Assembly (NCBI GenBank): GCA_016176845.1
Contig: JACOWJ010000020.1
Location: 1-25,369, forward strand
Length of the DNA: 25,369 nucleotides
From: Nitrospinota bacterium
GTDB lineage: Bacteria > 2-12-FULL-45-22 > JACOWJ01
Direction: 5' to 3'
Position numbers and translations under genes: made by a program. The notes beneath the pieces were generated by a model that did no database searches, was not told where the DNA came from, and saw only the letters and a list, made by a program, of their open reading frames with translations. Below are positions 2,295-24,230 of the stretch, one piece after another. Position 1 is the first letter of the stretch, and every line of letters starts with the position of its first letter.

Positions 2295-2295
2295 G

Positions 2296-2347
2296 CGCCC
2301 CTGCGGGGCGAATTGAAAATTGAAAATTAGAAATTGGAAATTTGAAC
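2296..2347. repeat. Interspersed repeat type I: small GC hairpin plus AATTGAAAATT run (def-fmt spacer copy)
   Basis: The element begins one base after the def stop with arms CGCCCC (2296-2301) and GGGGCG (2305-2310). It continues as a low-complexity AT-rich run built from GAATTGAAAATT and GAAATTGGAAATTTG. The same order, hairpin and then this run, recurs inside carB (18126-18208). The run alone recurs at the carB 3' end (20107-20140). It is not a classical terminator because no T-run follows the hairpin. Confidence 0.75.
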
Positions 2348-3408: not shown

Positions 3409-4788
3409 ATGGAACCTCAGGGAACGAAGACGAAGACCGCCCGGGCCTATGCCTTGGAGCTGCTCCATCGCGTAGAGACTCAGCGGAAGTACGCGGCCCC
3501 CTTATTAAACCGGCTGTTAGAGCGGGAGGAGATCTCGCCGCCGGACAAGGGGTTGATCCACGAGCTGGTGTATGGGGTCTTGCGCTGGCGGAATCGGTTG
3601 GATTGGATCATCGGAAGCTGTGCCAGCCGGCCCATGGAGGAGATGACCTCTTGGATTCGAAACATCCTGCGGCTGGGAGTTTATCAGCTCACTTTCACCC
3701 AAAAGATCCCGCCGGCCGCAGCCGTCCATGAGTCGGTGAGCCTGGCCCACCGGTATGGCCACCAGGGGACCGCCGCTTTCGTGAACGCCATCTTGCGGGA
3801 GGTGCAGCGTCGCGGAGGAGCCGTGGCCTTCCCCGACGCACAGAAGGAGCCGAGCCAATTCATTGCAACCTATTACTCTCATCCGCAATGGCTGATGGAA
3901 CGCTGGCTCGCCCGGTACGGGCTCGATCTGACCGTCGAGATTTGCCAGGCCAACAACTCCCCGCCGCCCCTCACCATCCGGATCAATACCCTCCGGACCA
4001 CCCGGGAGCCCTTGAAGGAGGCCCTGATCGAAGAAGGGGCGGCAGTAAAAGAGTGTGCCCTGTCCCCCGAAGGCCTGAGAATCCTCCTTCCCGTGCCCAT
4101 CCCTCGGCTTTCCTCCTTCCAGCGGGGTTGGTTTCAGGTCCAGGACGAGAGCTCGATCCTGATGGGACACCTGTTAGCCCCTCAACCCGGGCAGCGAATA
4201 TTGGATGCCTGCGCCGGCCTGGGTGGCAAGGCTACGCACCTGGCCCAGCAGATGGGCGATCGGGGAGAGGTCCTGGCCCTGGATATCAACCCCAAGAAGC
4301 TGGCCGGACTGGAGGAGAACTGCCGGCGGGTGGGCGTGACGATCGTCCGAGGATGTCTGGGAGATGCGACCCACCTGGAGACGGAAATCGGAATGTTCGA
4401 TGCCCTGCTGGTGGATGCCCCTTGCTCCAACCTGGGCGTGATCCGGCGGCACCCAGAGATTCGCTGGCTCAAAGAGGAGTCAGATATTCACCGTCTCCAG
4501 GAGTTACAGCTCCGGTTGCTGGCAGGGGTCGCAGACCATCTGATCCCCGGAGGGGTCCTGCTCTACTGCACATGCAGCTTTGAGCCCGAGGAGACCGAGG
4601 AGGTCGTCCAGCGGTTCCTGAAAGGGCATCCCCAATTTGCGCTGGAGGATCCTCGCCCCCATCTGCCCAACGGGGCCGAAGGGCTGGTGACCGAAGAAGG
4701 CTATTTCGTCTCCCTGCCTTCTCTGCCTTACTCCATGGATGGGTTTTTCGCAGCCAGAATGAAAAGGGGAAACAGGCTATCGGGCTGA
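3409..4788 (+). CDS. rsmB: 16S rRNA (cytosine-967-C5)-methyltransferase RsmB
   Basis: RsmB (Sun/Fmu) methylates C5 of cytosine 967 of 16S rRNA using SAM. The 459-residue protein has the two expected parts: a NusB-like helical RNA-binding domain (about 8-145) and a Rossmann methyltransferase domain (about 175-455). The SAM loop DACAGLGGKA is at 266-275. DAPCS at 336-340 carries C339, and TCS at 388-390 carries C389, the expected pair of catalytic cysteines. Length is close to the E. coli enzyme. The ATG at 3409 has only a weak SD, and a large hairpin ends just before it, which could reduce translation (inference). The next gene starts 28 bases after the stop with a strong SD, which suggests one transcript. 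Confidence 0.96.
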   Translation: MEPQGTKTKTARAYALELLHRVETQRKYAAPLLNRLLEREEISPPDKGLIHELVYGVLRWRNRLDWIIGSCASRPMEEMTSWIRNILRLGVYQLTFTQKIPPAAAVHESVSLAHRYGHQGTAAFVNAILREVQRRGGAVAFPDAQKEPSQFIATYYSHPQWLMERWLARYGLDLTVEICQANNSPPPLTIRINTLRTTREPLKEALIEEGAAVKECALSPEGLRILLPVPIPRLSSFQRGWFQVQDESSILMGHLLAPQPGQRILDACAGLGGKATHLAQQMGDRGEVLALDINPKKLAGLEENCRRVGVTIVRGCLGDATHLETEIGMFDALLVDAPCSNLGVIRRHPEIRWLKEESDIHRLQELQLRLLAGVADHLIPGGVLLYCTCSFEPEETEEVVQRFLKGHPQFALEDPRPHLPNGAEGLVTEEGYFVSLPSLPYSMDGFFAARMKRGNRLSG

Positions 4789-6353: not shown

Positions 6354-6434
6354 TTTAAATTAGGGGACAGGGAACAGGGGACAGGGTCCCAATAATCTGT
6401 ACCCTAAAAATGGAAATTCCTGCGATCAAGTTAG
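6354..6434. repeat. Interspersed repeat type III in the ffh leader
   Basis: The left end is 26 bases identical to carB 18232-18257 (TTTAAATTAGGGGACAGG...). The right end is AAATTCCT (6414-6421) plus CGATCAAGTTAG (6423-6434), also found at carB 18318-18325 and 18329-18340. The interior differs between copies but contains a small hairpin in each (here AGGGT 6383-6387 with ACCCT 6401-6405). The right end abuts the SD of ffh. Confidence 0.8.
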
Positions 6435-15410: not shown

Positions 15411-16055
15411 ATGACCCCGATCATCCCCATCGACCCGCATCGGCCCGATCCCGATCGCGTGCGAGAGGCCGCGGCAGCCATCCGGGCCGGAAAGCTGGTG
15501 GTTTTGCCCACGGATACCCTGTATGGCCTGGGGGCCAATGCCCTGGACGAGAAGGCGGTCGAGAAGGTTTATCAGGTCAAGCGAAGGCGGTTATCGAAGC
15601 CGCTGTTGATCTTCATCGGGGAAGAGGAAGAGCTGCATGAGCTCATCGAGGCCTTGCCCCCTCTGGCCGAGAGGCTCATGCGGGCCTTCTGGCCTGGCCC
15701 GCTCACCCTGGTCTTTCCTGCCTCTTCCCGCTTGCCCCGGGTCCTATTGGGGGACACCTCGGACATCGCCATCCGTCTGCCCGCCCTGCCCCTGATCCGG
15801 TCGCTGGTCCGAGAGGCGGGGGTCCCCATTACTGGTACCAGCGCCAATCTGTCCGATCGCCCCACCCCGCCCACGGCCCAGGGGGTCCTGCAGGAGCTGG
15901 GGGAGGGGGTCGATCTCCTGCTGGATGGGGGACCCTGTACGAGCCAGATGGGCTCCACCCTGATTGACCTCACGCAAACGCCTCCTCAATTGCTGCGGGA
16001 GGGGGAGATCCCGCGAGCGGCCATCGAAGAGCTGATCGGGCCTTTAAAGGGGTGA
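15411..16055 (+). CDS. L-threonylcarbamoyladenylate synthase (TsaC/YrdC/Sua5 family)
   Basis: This enzyme makes threonylcarbamoyl-AMP from threonine, bicarbonate and ATP, the first step of the t6A37 tRNA modification. The 214-residue protein is a single YrdC domain without the extra Sua5 C-terminal domain, so it is TsaC-like in size. The KxR...SxN signature is present: K57-R58-R59 followed by S144-A145-N146. PTDTLYGLG at 33-41 and WPGPLTLVF near 94-102 are also conserved. The ATG at 15411 fits the family N-terminus. It follows purE and precedes the hicB-like gene by seven bases, so an AT-rich insertion sits immediately behind it. Confidence 0.93.
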   Translation: MTPIIPIDPHRPDPDRVREAAAAIRAGKLVVLPTDTLYGLGANALDEKAVEKVYQVKRRRLSKPLLIFIGEEEELHELIEALPPLAERLMRAFWPGPLTLVFPASSRLPRVLLGDTSDIAIRLPALPLIRSLVREAGVPITGTSANLSDRPTPPTAQGVLQELGEGVDLLLDGGPCTSQMGSTLIDLTQTPPQLLREGEIPRAAIEELIGPLKG

Positions 16056-16062
16056 AAAATTT

Positions 16063-16329
16063 ATGGATTTTTATACGGTCGTGTTCAGAAAAAGCGATCA
16101 TCATTGGGTGGCTTTGTGTTTGGAAAACGGGTTAGTAGGGCAAGCAGGCACAAAAGAGATAGCATTCGAAAAATTGAAAGAAGCTATTGTTTCTTTTGAG
16201 GAAGTTAGAAAAGAAGAAGAAAATATTCATTGCGCACCTATATCTATAAAGGAGCTCCATGAATTTCTTACCATAGAGAGGACAGACCCTATTTCAGAAT
16301 CGTTTGAGCTCAGGGCTCTCTATGCCTAA
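16063..16329 (+). CDS. hicB: HicB-like antitoxin
   Basis: The 88-residue product looks like a HicB antitoxin. It has an N-terminal partial RNase H-like fold (YTVVFRKSDHHWVALCLENG, then GQAGTKEIAFEKLKEAI) and a short C-terminal tail. I see no clear ribbon-helix-helix or HTH DNA-binding motif. It overlaps the hicA-like gene by eight bases, so the pair is translationally coupled. The order is antitoxin before toxin, opposite to the classic hicA-hicB order but known in part of the family. The ATG at 16063 follows AAGGGGTGA at the end of tsaC. Base composition is clearly AT-richer than both flanks, which suggests acquisition by transfer. Assignment rests on the fold pattern and the partner gene. 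Confidence 0.75.
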   Translation: MDFYTVVFRKSDHHWVALCLENGLVGQAGTKEIAFEKLKEAIVSFEEVRKEEENIHCAPISIKELHEFLTIERTDPISESFELRALYA

Positions 16330-16561
16330 GAATGTTCCTTCTTTAAAACCAAAAGAGCTTATCAGGCTGTTAGAGCATGCAGGCTGCGAATTTTATAGAG
16401 AAGGAAAGGGAGACCACCGGCTATATGTCCGTTATGTTGGAGATAAGAAAAGAGTAGTTCCTATTGACATGGGAGAAGTAGAATTATCAACTGCTTACGT
16501 GATACGAATTTTCCGACAATTTGGTTTTACCGACCATGAAATAGAAAAGATCCTGGAATAA
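16322..16561 (+). CDS. hicA: HicA-like mRNA interferase toxin
   Basis: HicA toxins are small dsRBD-fold RNases that cleave mRNA and need a conserved histidine. This 79-residue protein has the typical order [25 protein letters not shown] (H32 as the candidate catalytic residue), and a C-terminal helix ending D-H-E-I-E-K-I-L. The ATG at 16322 lies inside the last codons of the hicB-like gene (eight-base overlap). A TTG at 16304 would add only six residues. The stop TAA (16559-16561) overlaps an ATG at 16561 that is in frame with carB, so the module is wedged tightly between tsaC and carB. It is AT-rich like its partner. Confidence 0.82.
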
Positions 16562-16608
16562 TGCTGCAAAACGTGGGGGGAATGCCCCGCGAAAATGGAG
16601 AAAGATCG

Positions 16609-19600
16609 TTGCCCAAAAGAAGAGATATCCAGAAGATCCTCCTGATCGGTTCCGGGCCCATTGTCATCGGCCAGGCCTGCGAGTTTGACTACTCCGGCAC
16701 CCAAGCCTGCAAGGCCCTCAGGGAGGAGGGCTACCAGGTGGTCCTGATCAACAGCAATCCCGCCACCATCATGACCGACCCCGAGATGGCCGATCGCACT
16801 TACATCGAGCCGCTGACCCCCGATATGCTGGAGCGGGTGATCGACCGGGAGCGGCCGGACGCCCTGTTGCCGACCGTGGGAGGACAAACCGCCCTCAACC
16901 TGGCCGTGAGGTTGGCCGAGGGGGGGATGCTGGACCGCTATGGGGTGGAGCTGATCGGGGCCAAGCTGGAAGCCATCAAGAAGGCCGAGGATCGTGGGCT
17001 CTTCAAGGCGGCGATGGAGCGCATCTCCCTGGAGCTCCCCCAGAGCGGCTATGCCCACTCCACCGCCGAGGCCTGGCAGGTCCTTCCAGAAATCGGCTTT
17101 CCCGTGATCATCCGGCCCTCCTTCACGTTGGGAGGCACGGGCGGAAATATCGCTTACAACCGGCAAGAGTTCCAGGACTATATCGAATGGGGGCTGCAGG
17201 CCAGCCCCATCGGAGAGATCCTGATCGAGGAGTCCGTGATCGGCTGGAAGGAGTTCGAGTTGGAGGTGATGCGGGACCTGAAGGACAACGTGGTCATCAT
17301 CTGCTCCATCGAGAACTTCGACCCCATGGGGGTCCACACGGGCGATAGCATCACGGTCGCCCCTGCCCAGACCCTCAGCGACAAAGAGTACCAGATCATG
17401 AGGAATGCCGCCATCGCCATCATCCGTGAGATCGGGGTGGAGACGGGCGGCTCAAACATCCAGTTCGCCGTCGATCCATGCAGCGGCCGCCTGGTGGTCA
17501 TCGAGATGAATCCCCGGGTGTCGCGCAGCTCGGCCCTGGCCTCCAAGGCCACCGGATTTCCCATCGCCAAGATCGCTGCCAAACTGGCCGTGGGCTACAC
17601 CCTGGACGAGATCCCCAACGATATCACCCGGGAGACCCCGGCCTCCTTCGAGCCCACCATCGACTACTGTGTAGTCAAGTTCCCCCGCTTCGCCTTCGAG
17701 AAGTTCCCCCAGGCCGATCAGACGCTCACCACCCAGATGAAATCGGTGGGAGAGGTGATGGCGATCGGCCGGACCTTCAAGGAGGCCCTCCAGAAGGCGA
17801 TCCGCTCCCTGGAGATCGACCGCTATGGTTTGGAGACCCCGACGGCTCTCCAGGGCCTCTCTGCCGAGAAGAAGGCCGAGTTGCTGCGGGAGGGGCTGCG
17901 GGTCCCCAACTGGGAGCGGGTCTGGCACATCGCCGAGGCCTTCCGCAGCGGCTGGGAGGTGGAACGCATCCATGAGCTCACGGGAATCGATCCATGGTTC
18001 CTCCACAACATCCGGGAGATCGTCGAGATGGAGGAGCAATTGGGATCTGCAGATAGCCGCCAGCTTGTAATGGCCTATCTGGAAGCTCCTCCCATCTCCG
18101 CTCTTCAGGCCGGAGAGGCCCCTGACGCCCCCTTCGGGGGCGAATCGGAAATTGAAGATGGCAAATTGGAAATTGGAAATTTGCACTTTCCAATTTCCAA
18201 TTTGCCATGGAGCGAAGCGACCCGGGAGGATTTTAAATTAGGGGACAGGGAACAGGGAATAGGGTATAGGAACTCCCCCCTATCTCTTGCTCATGGTCCC
18301 GCATTCATCGAAAAAGAAAATTCCTATACGATCAAGTTAGCGATCCGGGAAGCCAAGGAGTACGGCTTCTCCGACCGCCGCCTGGCCGGGCTCTGGGGGG
18401 TCCGGGAGGGAGAGGTGCGCAAGCTCCGAGAGGCGGCAGGAATCCGCGCCACTTTCAACCGGGTGGATACCTGCGCGGCCGAGTTTGAAGCCTACACCCC
18501 TTACCTCTATTCCACGTATGAGCGGGAGTGCGAGGCCCGGCCCACCGATCGGAAAAAGATCGTCATCCTGGGAGGAGGACCCAACCGGATCGGCCAGGGG
18601 ATCGAGTTCGACTACTGCTGCGTCCACGCGGCTTACGCCCTGAAGGAGCTCGGCTATGAGACCCTCATGGTCAACTGCAATCCGGAGACCGTCAGCACCG
18701 ATTACGACACCTCCGATCGGCTGTACTTCGAGCCCCTGACGCTGGAGGATGTCCTGAACATCGTCTCGGTCGAGCGACCCGAAGGGGTGATCGTCCAGTT
18801 CGGAGGGCAGACCCCTTTGAAGCTGGCCGTTCCCCTGGAGCGAGCCGGGGTAAGGATCCTGGGGACCTCCCCCGACAGCATCGACCGGGCTGAGGACCGC
18901 CAGCGCTTCAAACTGCTGCTGGAAAAGCTGGGCTTGCGCCAGCCCGAAAGCGGCACGGCCCTCTCTTTCGAGGCGGCCCGGGAGATCGCCAAGAGAATCG
19001 GCTACCCGGTCCTGGTCCGCCCCTCCTACGTCCTGGGGGGAAGGGCCATGGAGATCGTCCACGAGGAGGTCGGCCTGGAGAAATACATGGCCCGGGCGGT
19101 AACCGCCTCTCCGGAACACCCCGTCCTGATCGACAAGTTCCTCCAGGATGCCATCGAGGTCGATGTGGATGCCATCGCGGACACGGAGCGGGTGGTGATC
19201 GGGGGAATCATGGAGCATATCGAGGAGGCGGGGATCCACTCCGGCGACAGCGCCTGTTCACTTCCGCCCTATTCCCTGTCGGCCGATCTAATCGACCAGA
19301 TGCGGGAGCAGACCCATCTCCTGGCCCGAGAGCTGGGGGTCATCGGCCTGATCAACATCCAGTTCGCCATTCAGAAACAAGAAGTCTACATCCTGGAGGT
19401 CAACCCGCGGGCCTCACGCACCATCCCCTTCGTCAGCAAGGCGATCGGGGTGCCCCTGGCGAAGCTGGCCGCCAAGGTGATGGCGGGGGTGACCCTGGAG
19501 AGGCTGGGCTTGACCGAGGAGAAGAGGATCCAGCACATTGCCGTCAAGGAAGCCGTCTTCCCCTTCATCAAGTTTCCGGGGGTGGACACCCTGCTGGGGC

Positions 19601-20127
19601 CCGAAATGAAATCGACCGGAGAGGTGATGGGAATCGATTGGGGCTTCGGCCAGGCCTTCGCCAAATCCCAGCTTTGCACCGATGGGGGGCTGCCCCAGGG
19701 AGGAATCGTCTTCATCAGCGTCAAGGACGAGGACAAGCCGGCGGCCGTCGAAATCGCCCGGCAGTTGGTGGCGTTGGGCTTCGAGATCGTGGCCACCCGT
19801 GGCACCGCCGCACATTTAAGGGCCGCAGGGATCGAGGTCCAAACGGTCCTCAAGGTGATCGAAGGACGGCCCAACATCGTCGATCGGATCAAGAACGGGG
19901 AGATCTCGTTGGTCATCAACACCCCGAGCGGTCGAGATTCTCAGCGGGACTCCTACAGCATTCGCCGGGCCGCGCTGGTCCATCACCTCCCTTATTGCAC
20001 CACCATCCCGGGCTCCTTCGCCGCAGCTCAAGGCATCAAGGCGGTCCTGGAGGGAAAGCTGGCGGTCCTCTCTCTCCAAGAATACCACCGGCATGCTGCG
20101 AATGCCGAATTGAAAATTGAAAATTGA
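16609..20127 (+). CDS. carB: Carbamoyl-phosphate synthase large subunit with large repeat-derived insert
   Basis: CarB makes carbamoyl phosphate from bicarbonate, glutamine-derived ammonia and two ATP, for pyrimidine and arginine synthesis. Both ATP-grasp halves are intact, with [17 protein letters not shown] near the N-terminus and [15 protein letters not shown] in the second half. A C-terminal MGS-like allosteric domain starts near [11 protein letters not shown]. The start is set at the TTG at 16609 (GGAG eight bases upstream; P-K-R-x-D-I-Q-K-I-L is the family N-terminus), giving 1172 residues. The in-frame ATGs at 16561 and 16582 lack a well-spaced SD. This is about 100 more than E. coli CarB (1073). 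The excess lies between MEEQL and [11 protein letters not shown] (residues 479-578), in the oligomerisation region, and is encoded by interspersed repeats. The last residues (AELKIEN) also come from a repeat. There is no carA nearby. Confidence 0.95.
18126..18208. repeat. Interspersed repeat type I inside carB, with a 22-bp perfect hairpin
   Basis: This copy has the same layout as the def-fmt spacer element: a CGCCCCC/GGGGGCG hairpin (18126-18132 and 18136-18142), then the GGAAATTG-type run. Here the run folds into a perfect 22-base stem (18158-18179 with 18187-18208, beginning ATGGCAAATTGG) around a seven-base loop. It is read in frame as part of CarB (about residues 506-533). Confidence 0.88.
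18232..18340. repeat. Interspersed repeat type III inside carB
   Basis: The left 26 bases (18232-18257) are identical to the ffh leader element at 6354-6379. The right end repeats AAATTCCT (18318-18325) and CGATCAAGTTAG (18329-18340). The interior is longer and different but again carries a small hairpin, ATAGG (18266-18270) with CCTAT (18279-18283). It encodes about residues 542-577 of CarB without a stop codon. Confidence 0.85.
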
Positions 20128-20140
20128 AAATTTTAAAATG
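20107..20140. repeat. AATTGAAAATT run at the carB end and next gene's start
   Basis: Three or more tandem ATTGAAAA units starting GAATTGAAAATTGAAAATT, identical in their first 19 bases to 2310-2328. They contain the carB stop codon (20125-20127) and the bases just before the ATG of the following gene. They are followed by a CTCGC-GAA-GCGAG hairpin (20153-20165), mirroring the hairpin-plus-run layout of the other copies. Confidence 0.75.
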
Positions 20141-20380
20141 GAAGGAACTACTCTCGCGAAGCGAGTCGCCGTCTTTCCCACCACCCACCAAACCCTCCAG
20201 GCCGAAAAGCTGCTCAAGGGTAACGGAATCAAGGTCAGGCCGGTGCTCAAGCCGCGCCGGATCGCCACCGAGTGTGGCATGGCCCTGGAGTTTGACGCCG
20301 CCGAAGAGGAGACGATCGTTCGTCTCTGCCAGGAGCGAAAGCTGGCGCTGGTGGGGATCTATCCGGTCGAGGGCTCATAA
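20138..20380 (+). CDS. DUF3343 family protein (putative Se/S carrier-like)
   Basis: An 80-residue protein resembling DUF3343, a small family described as putative selenium/sulfur carrier-like. Visible features are the VAVFPTTHQTLQAEKLLKG helix-strand start, V-R-P-V-L-K-P-R-R-I-A-T-E-C-G-M-A-L with the conserved CG pair near residue 47, and a D-A-A-E-E-E-T-I helix. The ATG at 20138 is ten bases after the carB stop and has no SD because the upstream bases are an AT repeat, so expression may depend on coupling to carB. An in-frame TTG at 20117 also lacks an SD. No selenium metabolism gene is nearby, so the role stays open. Confidence 0.75.
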   Translation: MEGTTLAKRVAVFPTTHQTLQAEKLLKGNGIKVRPVLKPRRIATECGMALEFDAAEEETIVRLCQERKLALVGIYPVEGS

Positions 20381-21568: not shown

Positions 21569-22318
21569 TAATGAATGCAATGAAGCAGTGCCTACGCCGT
21601 TTTTTTTTACCACCAGCAGGTTGAACCTTGTGCCCTTTGGCGGCAACTCGACGGGGATCACCTTCTCCATCCGGGCCTGATAATCGGCCAGGGCCCGGGC
21701 TGCGGCCTGGCCCTCTTCCTCCACCTCCTCCCCCTTTTGGACGACCAGGCTTCCGCCGACCTTGAGCAAAGGGAGAGAAAAGGGGATGACCTTCCCCACC
21801 TTTCCAACGGCGCGGCAGAGGATCAGGTCAAAACTGCCCAGATAATTCCCTTCTCGGATTAACGCCTCAGAACGTTGGGCCTCGTAACGGACCCCCTCCA
21901 ACCCCAAGATCCGGCCGATATGCTTCAGGAAAGCCGCCTTTTTCTGGCTGGCCTCGATCAGCGTAAGGCAAATCTCCGGGCGGTAGATCTTGATGGGCAG
22001 CCCGGGAAAGCCGGCCCCAGCCCCCAGGTCCGCCACTTCCAGGCCGGGGGCCGGCTCGAAGGCGCGCAAGAAGGCCAGCGAGCCCAAAAAATGTTTCGCG
22101 ATGATCTCCTCCTCCCGTCGCAGGGAGGTGAGGTTGATCCTTTGGTTCCACTTGAGCAGCTCCCTCAGGTAGACCAGGAGCTGCTCTTTTTGCCCCATCT
22201 CCAAAGGGAAACCCGCCAATTTGAACCAATCCCAGGGGTTCCCTGCGATAACCGAATTGTGCCGTAAACCGACATGATCAAGCAAAGTTGACCACTCCCG
22301 GGCATAAAAAAGAACCAT
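21560..22318 (-). CDS. rsmG: 16S rRNA (guanine-527-N7)-methyltransferase RsmG
   Basis: RsmG (GidB) methylates N7 of G527 in 16S rRNA; loss gives low-level streptomycin resistance in many bacteria. From the ATG at 22318 the product has 252 residues, about 40 more than usual. The SAM loop DLGAGAGFPGLP is at 97-108, and KWNQRINLTSLR near 56-67 is the typical N-terminal motif. The first 30 or so residues come from an interspersed repeat (22264-22346) and are not conserved. An alternative TTG start near 22285 with GGGAG upstream is plausible. Near the C-terminus a T9 run (21600-21608, + strand) is a potential slippage site, and the last residues overlap the Fnr-like gene. No mnmG or parAB is adjacent in this window. 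Confidence 0.93.
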   Translation of the reverse strand: MVLFYAREWSTLLDHVGLRHNSVIAGNPWDWFKLAGFPLEMGQKEQLLVYLRELLKWNQRINLTSLRREEEIIAKHFLGSLAFLRAFEPAPGLEVADLGAGAGFPGLPIKIYRPEICLTLIEASQKKAAFLKHIGRILGLEGVRYEAQRSEALIREGNYLGSFDLILCRAVGKVGKVIPFSLPLLKVGGSLVVQKGEEVEEEGQAAARALADYQARMEKVIPVELPPKGTRFNLLVVKKNGVGTASLHSLLQ

Positions 22319-23169: not shown

Positions 23170-23261
23170 AGGTGTACGGAAGCTTATTGGGGCAAATTTT
23201 CTCTGCGGAGCAACGCTTCCCTGGCGTCCATTCGGCCGCAAGGATGCAAGGACCCACGATC

Positions 23262-24230
23262 ATGGCAGACAGAAACCCCAAACTCCTTGACCAGGTGCGC
23301 CAGGTCATTCGGACCAGGCATTACAGCATCCGAACCGAAGAGGCTTACGTGCATTGGATTAAAAGGTTCGTTCTTTTCCACCACAAACGTCACCCGAAGG
23401 AAATGGGAGCCGAGGAGGTAAACCGGTTTTTATCGGATCTGGCCGTAAAGCAAAATGTGGCCGCATCCACCCAAAACCAGGCCTTGAGCGCTATTTTGTT
23501 TCTTTACCAGGAGGTCCTCAAGCAGGAGATCGGCTGGCTCGGCGATCTCATACGTGCTCAAAAGCCGAAAAAGTTGCCCGTCGTCTTTACCCGAGAAGAG
23601 GTCAAATCTGTCCTGAACTGCTTATCCGACATCAACCGGCTCATGGCAAATCTCCTGTACGGTTCCGGGCTTCGGCTGATGGAGTGCCTCCGCTTGCGGG
23701 TGAAGGATATCGACTTCTCCTACAATCAAATCGTGGTCCGGGATGGCAAAGGCGAAAAGGACCGGGTGACCATGCTGCCCCTTAGCCTGAAAGATCCTTT
23801 GCAGCGACATTTGAAGGAGGTAAAAAAGCTCCATCAAAAAGATTTGAACGATGGGTTTGGGGACGTATACCTGCCCTATGCCCTGGAGAGAAAATATCCC
23901 AATGCCTGCCGCGAATGGGCCTGGCAATACGTCTTCCCCTCTTTAAAACGTTCGATTGACCCTCGCAGTGGAATCGAAAGGCGACATCACCTGGGTAAAG
24001 AGGTTTTGCAGCGGGCAGTGAAAGAGGCAATCTGGAAGGCAGGCATCCATAAGGCCGCGAGCTGCCACACCTTCCGCCACTCTTTTGCCACGCATTTGCT
24101 TGAGGCGGGCTATGATATCCGTACTGTCCAGGAGTTACTGGGCCATAAGGATGTCAGTACGACCATGATTTACACCCACGTTCTAAATCGAGGAGGAAAG
24201 GGTGTCCAGAGCCCGGCTGACCTGTTGTAG
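23262..24230 (+). CDS. intI: Integron-type tyrosine recombinase IntI
   Basis: Integron integrases recombine attC cassette sites with attI. With the ATG at 23262 (AAGGAC nine bases upstream) the protein has 322 residues, close to class 1 IntI. The N-terminal SAM-like core-binding domain is at about 5-90. Catalytic residues: R138 in GSGLRLME, K163 in DGKGEKDR, H269 and R272 in [12 protein letters not shown]295 in [10 protein letters not shown], and the nucleophile Y304. The integron-specific insert is present (about 195-225, with ALERKYP at 207-213, and DPRSG at 233-237), which separates it from XerC/D. The frame extends upstream to a GTG at 23172 that lacks an SD. It points the same way as the following AT-rich gene. 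Functionally complete as far as residues show; no canonical attC array is seen in the window. Confidence 0.93.

Follow-up and report, generated by a model that had tools for sequence, protein, structure and literature searches.

In-frame dispersed repeats in the hinge of the carbamoyl-phosphate synthase large subunit of a Nitrospinota bacterium

In a 25,369-nt stretch of a Nitrospinota genome (hereafter, the window), the gene carB carries in its hinge 221 nt of repeat-derived DNA (~18121–18341, ~73 codons), tiled by two repeat families, A and B. This in-frame, palindromic, REP/MITE-like pair is very probably a passenger in a permissive loop of CarB, corresponding to residues 478–489 of the E. 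coli protein. Copies of the repeats throughout the genome, the lack of the insert in a relative from the same order, and its predicted disorder all support in-frame invasion by repeats. A repeat insert in the CarB hinge had been proposed by a sequence-only reading of the window; its existence was confirmed, and the interpretation given to it is supported by the analysis below.

The carB gene and its hinge

We annotated carB, encoding the large subunit of carbamoyl-phosphate synthase, at 16609–20127 on the plus strand, using Pfam, phmmer, and NF003671. The gene is contained in a single open frame of 1188 codons with no stops (16561–20127); the mechanical ORF begins at 16561, while the start codon is probably the TTG at 16609 (MPKRRDIQ). 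CarB scored 1722.6 bits against the equivalog model NF003671 (cut-off 599), and the Pfam domains comprised CPSase_L_D1 and D2, each found twice, D3, and MGS, so the set of elements characteristic of the family is complete: two preATP-grasp/ATP-grasp units plus the oligomerisation and MGS domains. Judged by its sequence, the protein is the large subunit of glutamine-dependent carbamoyl-phosphate synthase. No second, normal carB was found in the source genome (61 contigs, estimated to be 68% complete). Directly 5′ of carB lies a small HicA-like ORF (16325–16562), whose TAA overlaps the ATG at 16561; it had no NCBIfam matches at 1e-10.

The hinge, measured from DPWFL to GFSD, is 129 aa long, compared to the median of 41 aa in a survey of 88 sequences, in which the query was entered twice. 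The next-longest hinges are those of L010 (89 aa), L016 (71 aa), and L094 (70 aa), while an apparently long hinge in L103 was an artefact of anchoring and was left aside. The excess is 90 aa relative to the same-order genome G001 (39 aa) and 78 aa relative to G032 (51 aa). In the phmmer alignment, query residues 496 and 595 correspond to E. coli residues 478 and 489, respectively, leaving 98 residues between them versus approximately 10 in E. coli, in line with the earlier count of 100 versus about a dozen. The open frame likewise bears out the claim that the insert introduces neither a stop nor a frameshift. As the match to PF02787 ends at profile position 56 of 80, the insert lies inside the oligomerisation domain, as had been suggested, and off the exact boundary of the two synthetase halves, where it had been placed.

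The AlphaFold2 model of the full-length protein, built with 42 sequences, had the mean pLDDT of 83.5 and pTM of 0.85. Values of pLDDT below 50 were observed solely at residues 499–523 and 525–564 (DNA positions 18100–18297) and at the last five residues; the helix resumes at residue 565 and runs on into the native IREAKE helix. Structure modelling, which had been suggested as a check, thus predicts a disordered insert within an otherwise normal, well-folded enzyme.

Repeat families and their copies in the genome

Searched against its own genome (1.53 Mb), the 300-nt segment at 18043–18342 gave 51 matches at E ≤ 1e-3. Dispersed copies of two of its parts, 18121–18225 and 18229–18341, agree with the earlier description of the insert as a composite of two repeat families. 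Family A (18121–18225, plus strand) consists of a GC-rich hairpin, CGCCCCC-TTC-GGGGGCG (18126–18142), an array of GGAAATT heptads forming a perfect inverted repeat of 22 bp (18158–18208, with the arms at 18158–18179 and 18187–18208), and the end GGAGCGAAGCGACC. We found nine copies spanning most of the query in the sampled stretches of the genome. The predicted RNA fold of the copy in carB has the energy of −51.7 kcal/mol, with z = −6.0 relative to shuffled sequences. Family B (18229–18341, plus strand) is built of GGGGACA/GGGAACA heptads; its middle varies, and its 3′ end, AAAAGGAAATTCCTATACGATCAAGTTAG, is conserved. It is represented by 18 copies spanning most of the query in the sampled stretches, and eight aligned copies have the mean column identity of 76%. 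Many family B copies carry a similar short direct repeat (AArTTAG) at either end of the element. Palindromic structure is clear in family A and weak in family B. A search of 16000–20300 against Rfam yielded no relevant family; a sub-threshold match of the palindrome to a microRNA family was taken as a chance one.

The preceding part of the hinge (18043–18120, plus strand), delimited by own-genome comparison and the codon map, has no repeat match and is lineage-specific; the segment 18036–18121 matched nothing but itself in the sampled repeat-rich stretches of the genome. By its sequence, this non-repeat remainder is an ordinary lineage-specific loop, and part of the added length is growth of the native loop. 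Hence, of the 85–90 residues earlier attributed to repeats, approximately 73 are indeed repeat-derived, whereas 18043–18120 is unique.

Both additional copies earlier reported in the window were recovered, the second being shorter than claimed. A family A-type copy is located just 3′ of the def stop codon (2295–2346, plus strand; 79% identity over 52 nt). Between rpe and ffh, only the head of family B is shared (6354–6387, plus strand; 94% over 34 nt). In addition, an A-type heptad array (20106–20143, plus strand) provides the last residues of CarB (NAELKIEN) and its stop codon. The window also contains an integron integrase (23172–24230; TIGR02249, 506 bits), with 82-nt direct repeats, possible recombination sites, upstream of it at 22266 and 22778.

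Genome-wide, the heptad pattern AATTGGAAATTGGAAA had 353 matches with at most three mismatches versus eight for the reversed control. For GGGGACAGGGAACAGGG, the respective numbers at three mismatches were 159 and 123, and this control is uninformative, as the motif resembles its own reverse; hence the assignment of family B rests on the copies found by BLAST. In the sampled 344 kb, there were 109 repeat arrays, few of them inside conserved proteins and most apparently intergenic, as expected if selection removes nearly all insertions into coding regions.

We searched for further in-frame cases in the stretches of the genome around repeat matches. DnaE (L150:4325–8143, contig C14) has two repeat-derived in-frame inserts, both absent from six relatives. 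The loop in its PHP domain is 67 aa long versus 31–33 aa in the six relatives (approximately 34 additional residues), reads RGAGEQKSKGAGEQGSKGAEE, and originates from an array similar to AGCAGGGG. The loop in the finger domain, 94 aa versus 36 aa in all six relatives (58 additional residues), reads GELEIENCKLQIEN...FQFSIFNLQSSI and is derived from the arms of family A. At L173:876–3941 (C31), two M16 peptidase units (YfmH/YfmF-like) are encoded by one ORF with a linker composed of A- and B-type repeats, which may mark a gene fusion. In a GlcD/GlpC-like fused flavoprotein (L166:1618–4800, C4), the cysteine-rich domain is preceded by a heptad insert in frame, KIGNWKLEIGNWK, and a protein of the inositol-phosphatase family (L186) is a shorter and weaker case. 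Repeat-bearing ORFs in L141, L142, L145, L174, and L132 look antisense or spurious and were not counted, nor were CdsA, a LutA-like protein, and others in which the repeats are found near the N-terminus alone and the start codon is uncertain; a pattern match in IF-2 (L133) was due to chance.

Origin of the insert and alternative explanations

Within this barely sampled phylum, the comparison involves one other genome, G001, from the same order. The two halves of its CarB are 81% and 76% identical to the query, and with a hinge of 39 aa it has no insert at this site; alignment with relatives had been suggested earlier as a check. The insert therefore either arose after the split from G001 or was lost in the relative, insertion on the lineage of the window being, from sequence comparison, the simpler scenario. 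The insert is also absent from every other CarB examined. In G054, the ORF for the N-terminal half of CarB ends at a position corresponding to query residue ~497, and the C-terminal half is on another contig, which makes it plausible that changes of length are tolerated at this site of the hinge. This agrees with the earlier suggestion that the insert is tolerated because it coincides with a natural break point.

We suggest that families A and B, non-coding and normally intergenic, would have come to lie side by side inside carB, having landed on the surface of the oligomerisation domain, in a loop where changes in length are tolerated. The surviving version would be one that is in frame and free of stops, yielding full-length CarB with ~73 extra disordered residues, which would be kept as a neutral passenger that does not harm folding. 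Neutrality seems most likely, and the insert is presumably translated as part of CarB. Mobilisation of the repeats or recombination seems a better explanation of their arrival than local growth, and template switching or recombination between copies appears as possible as transposition. No Y1/RAYT transposase (PF01797) was found in the source genome at its 68% completeness, and the domain is present in G001, G060, and G061.

The two families differ in how easily they can be accommodated in a coding sequence. With a 7-nt unit, an array runs through each of the three phases once per 21 nt, and so the GGAAATT array is stop-free in any frame on both strands, reading GNWKLEI or NFQFPIS. Among the family A copies, one of which is the selected copy in CarB, 22 of 54 frames are stop-free, compared to 13% in shuffled sequences, while for family B the fraction is no better than in shuffles (17 of 108 frames versus 14%). 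Thus family A is easily absorbed in frame, while family B needed luck and selection.

It is very unlikely that a short-read assembler joined two fragments of carB via repeats, adding or collapsing repeat DNA. Repeats are classic assembly break points, and the assembly is both fragmented and incomplete; still, the two halves of carB match those of the relative in the right order and frame, the repeat copies are individually diverged, and two more cases are seen at another locus, in DnaE. Moreover, the longest exact match between the insert and any sampled repeat is 27 nt, too short to make a mis-join likely. Expression as two half-proteins, with hairpins halting or restarting translation or transcription, could be suggested by the strong hairpins at 18126–18142 and 18158–18208 and by the separate ORFs for the CarB halves in G054, broken at the same residue. 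Given that the frame has no stop codons and shows no demonstrated internal start accompanied by a ribosome site, we regard it as highly improbable.

The insert could also have been recruited to regulate CarB by affecting oligomerisation, partner binding, or, via the 22-bp hairpin, mRNA structure. Its position in the oligomerisation domain, the strong RNA fold of the family A copy, and the recurrence of repeats in CarB linkers across phyla are consistent with such a role, which nevertheless seems quite unlikely, as the sequence is unrelated in each lineage, the insert is predicted to be disordered, and unrelated proteins of the same genome carry similar inserts. That the added length could be a conserved domain common to the lineage and unrelated to intergenic repeats is extremely improbable, and we found nothing in its favour. 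Some CarB proteins do have long non-repetitive hinges, as in L010 (Phycisphaerales), whose 89-aa hinge is single-copy in its own genome and was rejected as a repeat case, so that length alone does not imply repeats. The insert in the window, however, shares DNA-level identity with intergenic copies and is missing from G001 and all other examined CarB proteins.

Known elements and CarB linkers of other lineages

The occurrence of Rickettsia palindromic elements (RPEs) within coding sequences has been described (Ogata 2000, 2002; reviewed in PMC10969869), and R. conorii DnaE is one in-frame repeat target according to PMC3733652. The passenger repeats in CarB resemble RPEs in being short, palindromic, dispersed repeats found in frame in unrelated, often essential proteins with the gene retained: they are dispersed in their own genome mostly outside conserved genes, occur in frame in the conserved CarB and DnaE, and are absent from relatives. 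By description, they are set apart from RPEs by the organism, the composite structure of two heptad-array families, and CarB as the target. Intragenic REPs tagged with GTAG or CGTC encode 20–82 aa within ORFs, with a location in linkers or loops suggested, and GTAG repeats inside genes are most numerous in the Verrucomicrobium O. terrae (PMC3733652). A GTAG REP is a stem-loop of 20–40 bp bearing the tag at one of its ends; by inspection, neither GTAG nor CTAC occurs in 18121–18341. Bacterial MITEs and ERIC are small non-autonomous elements that can lengthen an ORF or break it up in frame (PMC10969869). The repeats in CarB are likewise small elements fused in frame with an ORF, but they carry no demonstrated terminal inverted repeats with target duplication, and many family B copies have AArTTAG direct repeats at their ends. 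The split carB of G054 is similar in having a tolerated break at the corresponding point of the protein, whereas here the chain is lengthened and unbroken.

In-frame palindromic repeats in proteins are thus already known, from Rickettsia (PMC10969869) and from the intragenic REPs treated in PMC3733652; together with the two inserts in DnaE and the others in the same genome, this calls for caution in describing the case as uncommon, as had been done earlier. The word “carbamoyl” is absent from the main text of PMC3733652, and a literature search combining carbamoyl-phosphate synthase with repeat terms found nothing. The apparently new features are the heptad-based elements, CarB as an essential target, and recurrence at CarB linkers.

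In Poribacterium L045, both CarB linkers (1156–1245 and 1366–1458) contain GGAATTC arrays, reading as IRNSEFGMRN; the motif occurs 32 times in the genome versus none for the reversed control. In Verrucomicrobium L016, the same hinge of CarB (near 4593–4757) contains a palindrome matched 64 times across that genome, which may belong to the GTAG/CGTC REP-type family. CarB of G001 (L158, C67) has a repeat-like sequence, FAEPALRPVQGRRARDD, in its other linker, with two further copies in the genome, three in all. As these sequences are unlike each other and unlike those in the window, we take them as independent events. The hinge KSKIKIKIKIK of L058 (Omnitrophota) is repetitive in look and was left out of the count; on this contig (3004–9655), two complete carB genes that differ from each other come after carA, and it is the first of them that has this lysine/isoleucine-repeat hinge. 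CarB was the protein looked at first, and so these cases establish no enrichment over other proteins.

Conversion of non-coding repeats into protein within an essential enzyme shows how disordered segments can be gained without gene loss. The published examples considered above come from Rickettsia and certain genomes rich in REPs; to these we add a single genome with one case in CarB and two in its replicative polymerase, and repeats in the CarB linkers of four lineages. This makes CarB a good test protein for how frequent such insertions are and whether they go beyond tolerance. On a more far-reaching reading, which we consider unlikely, the dispersed repeats native to each genome would land time after time, in different phyla, in the two CarB linkers flanking the oligomerisation domain, and in some lineages the repeat-coded hinge would have come to modulate the enzyme. 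If this were true, repeats that are otherwise intergenic would remodel essential enzymes again and again.
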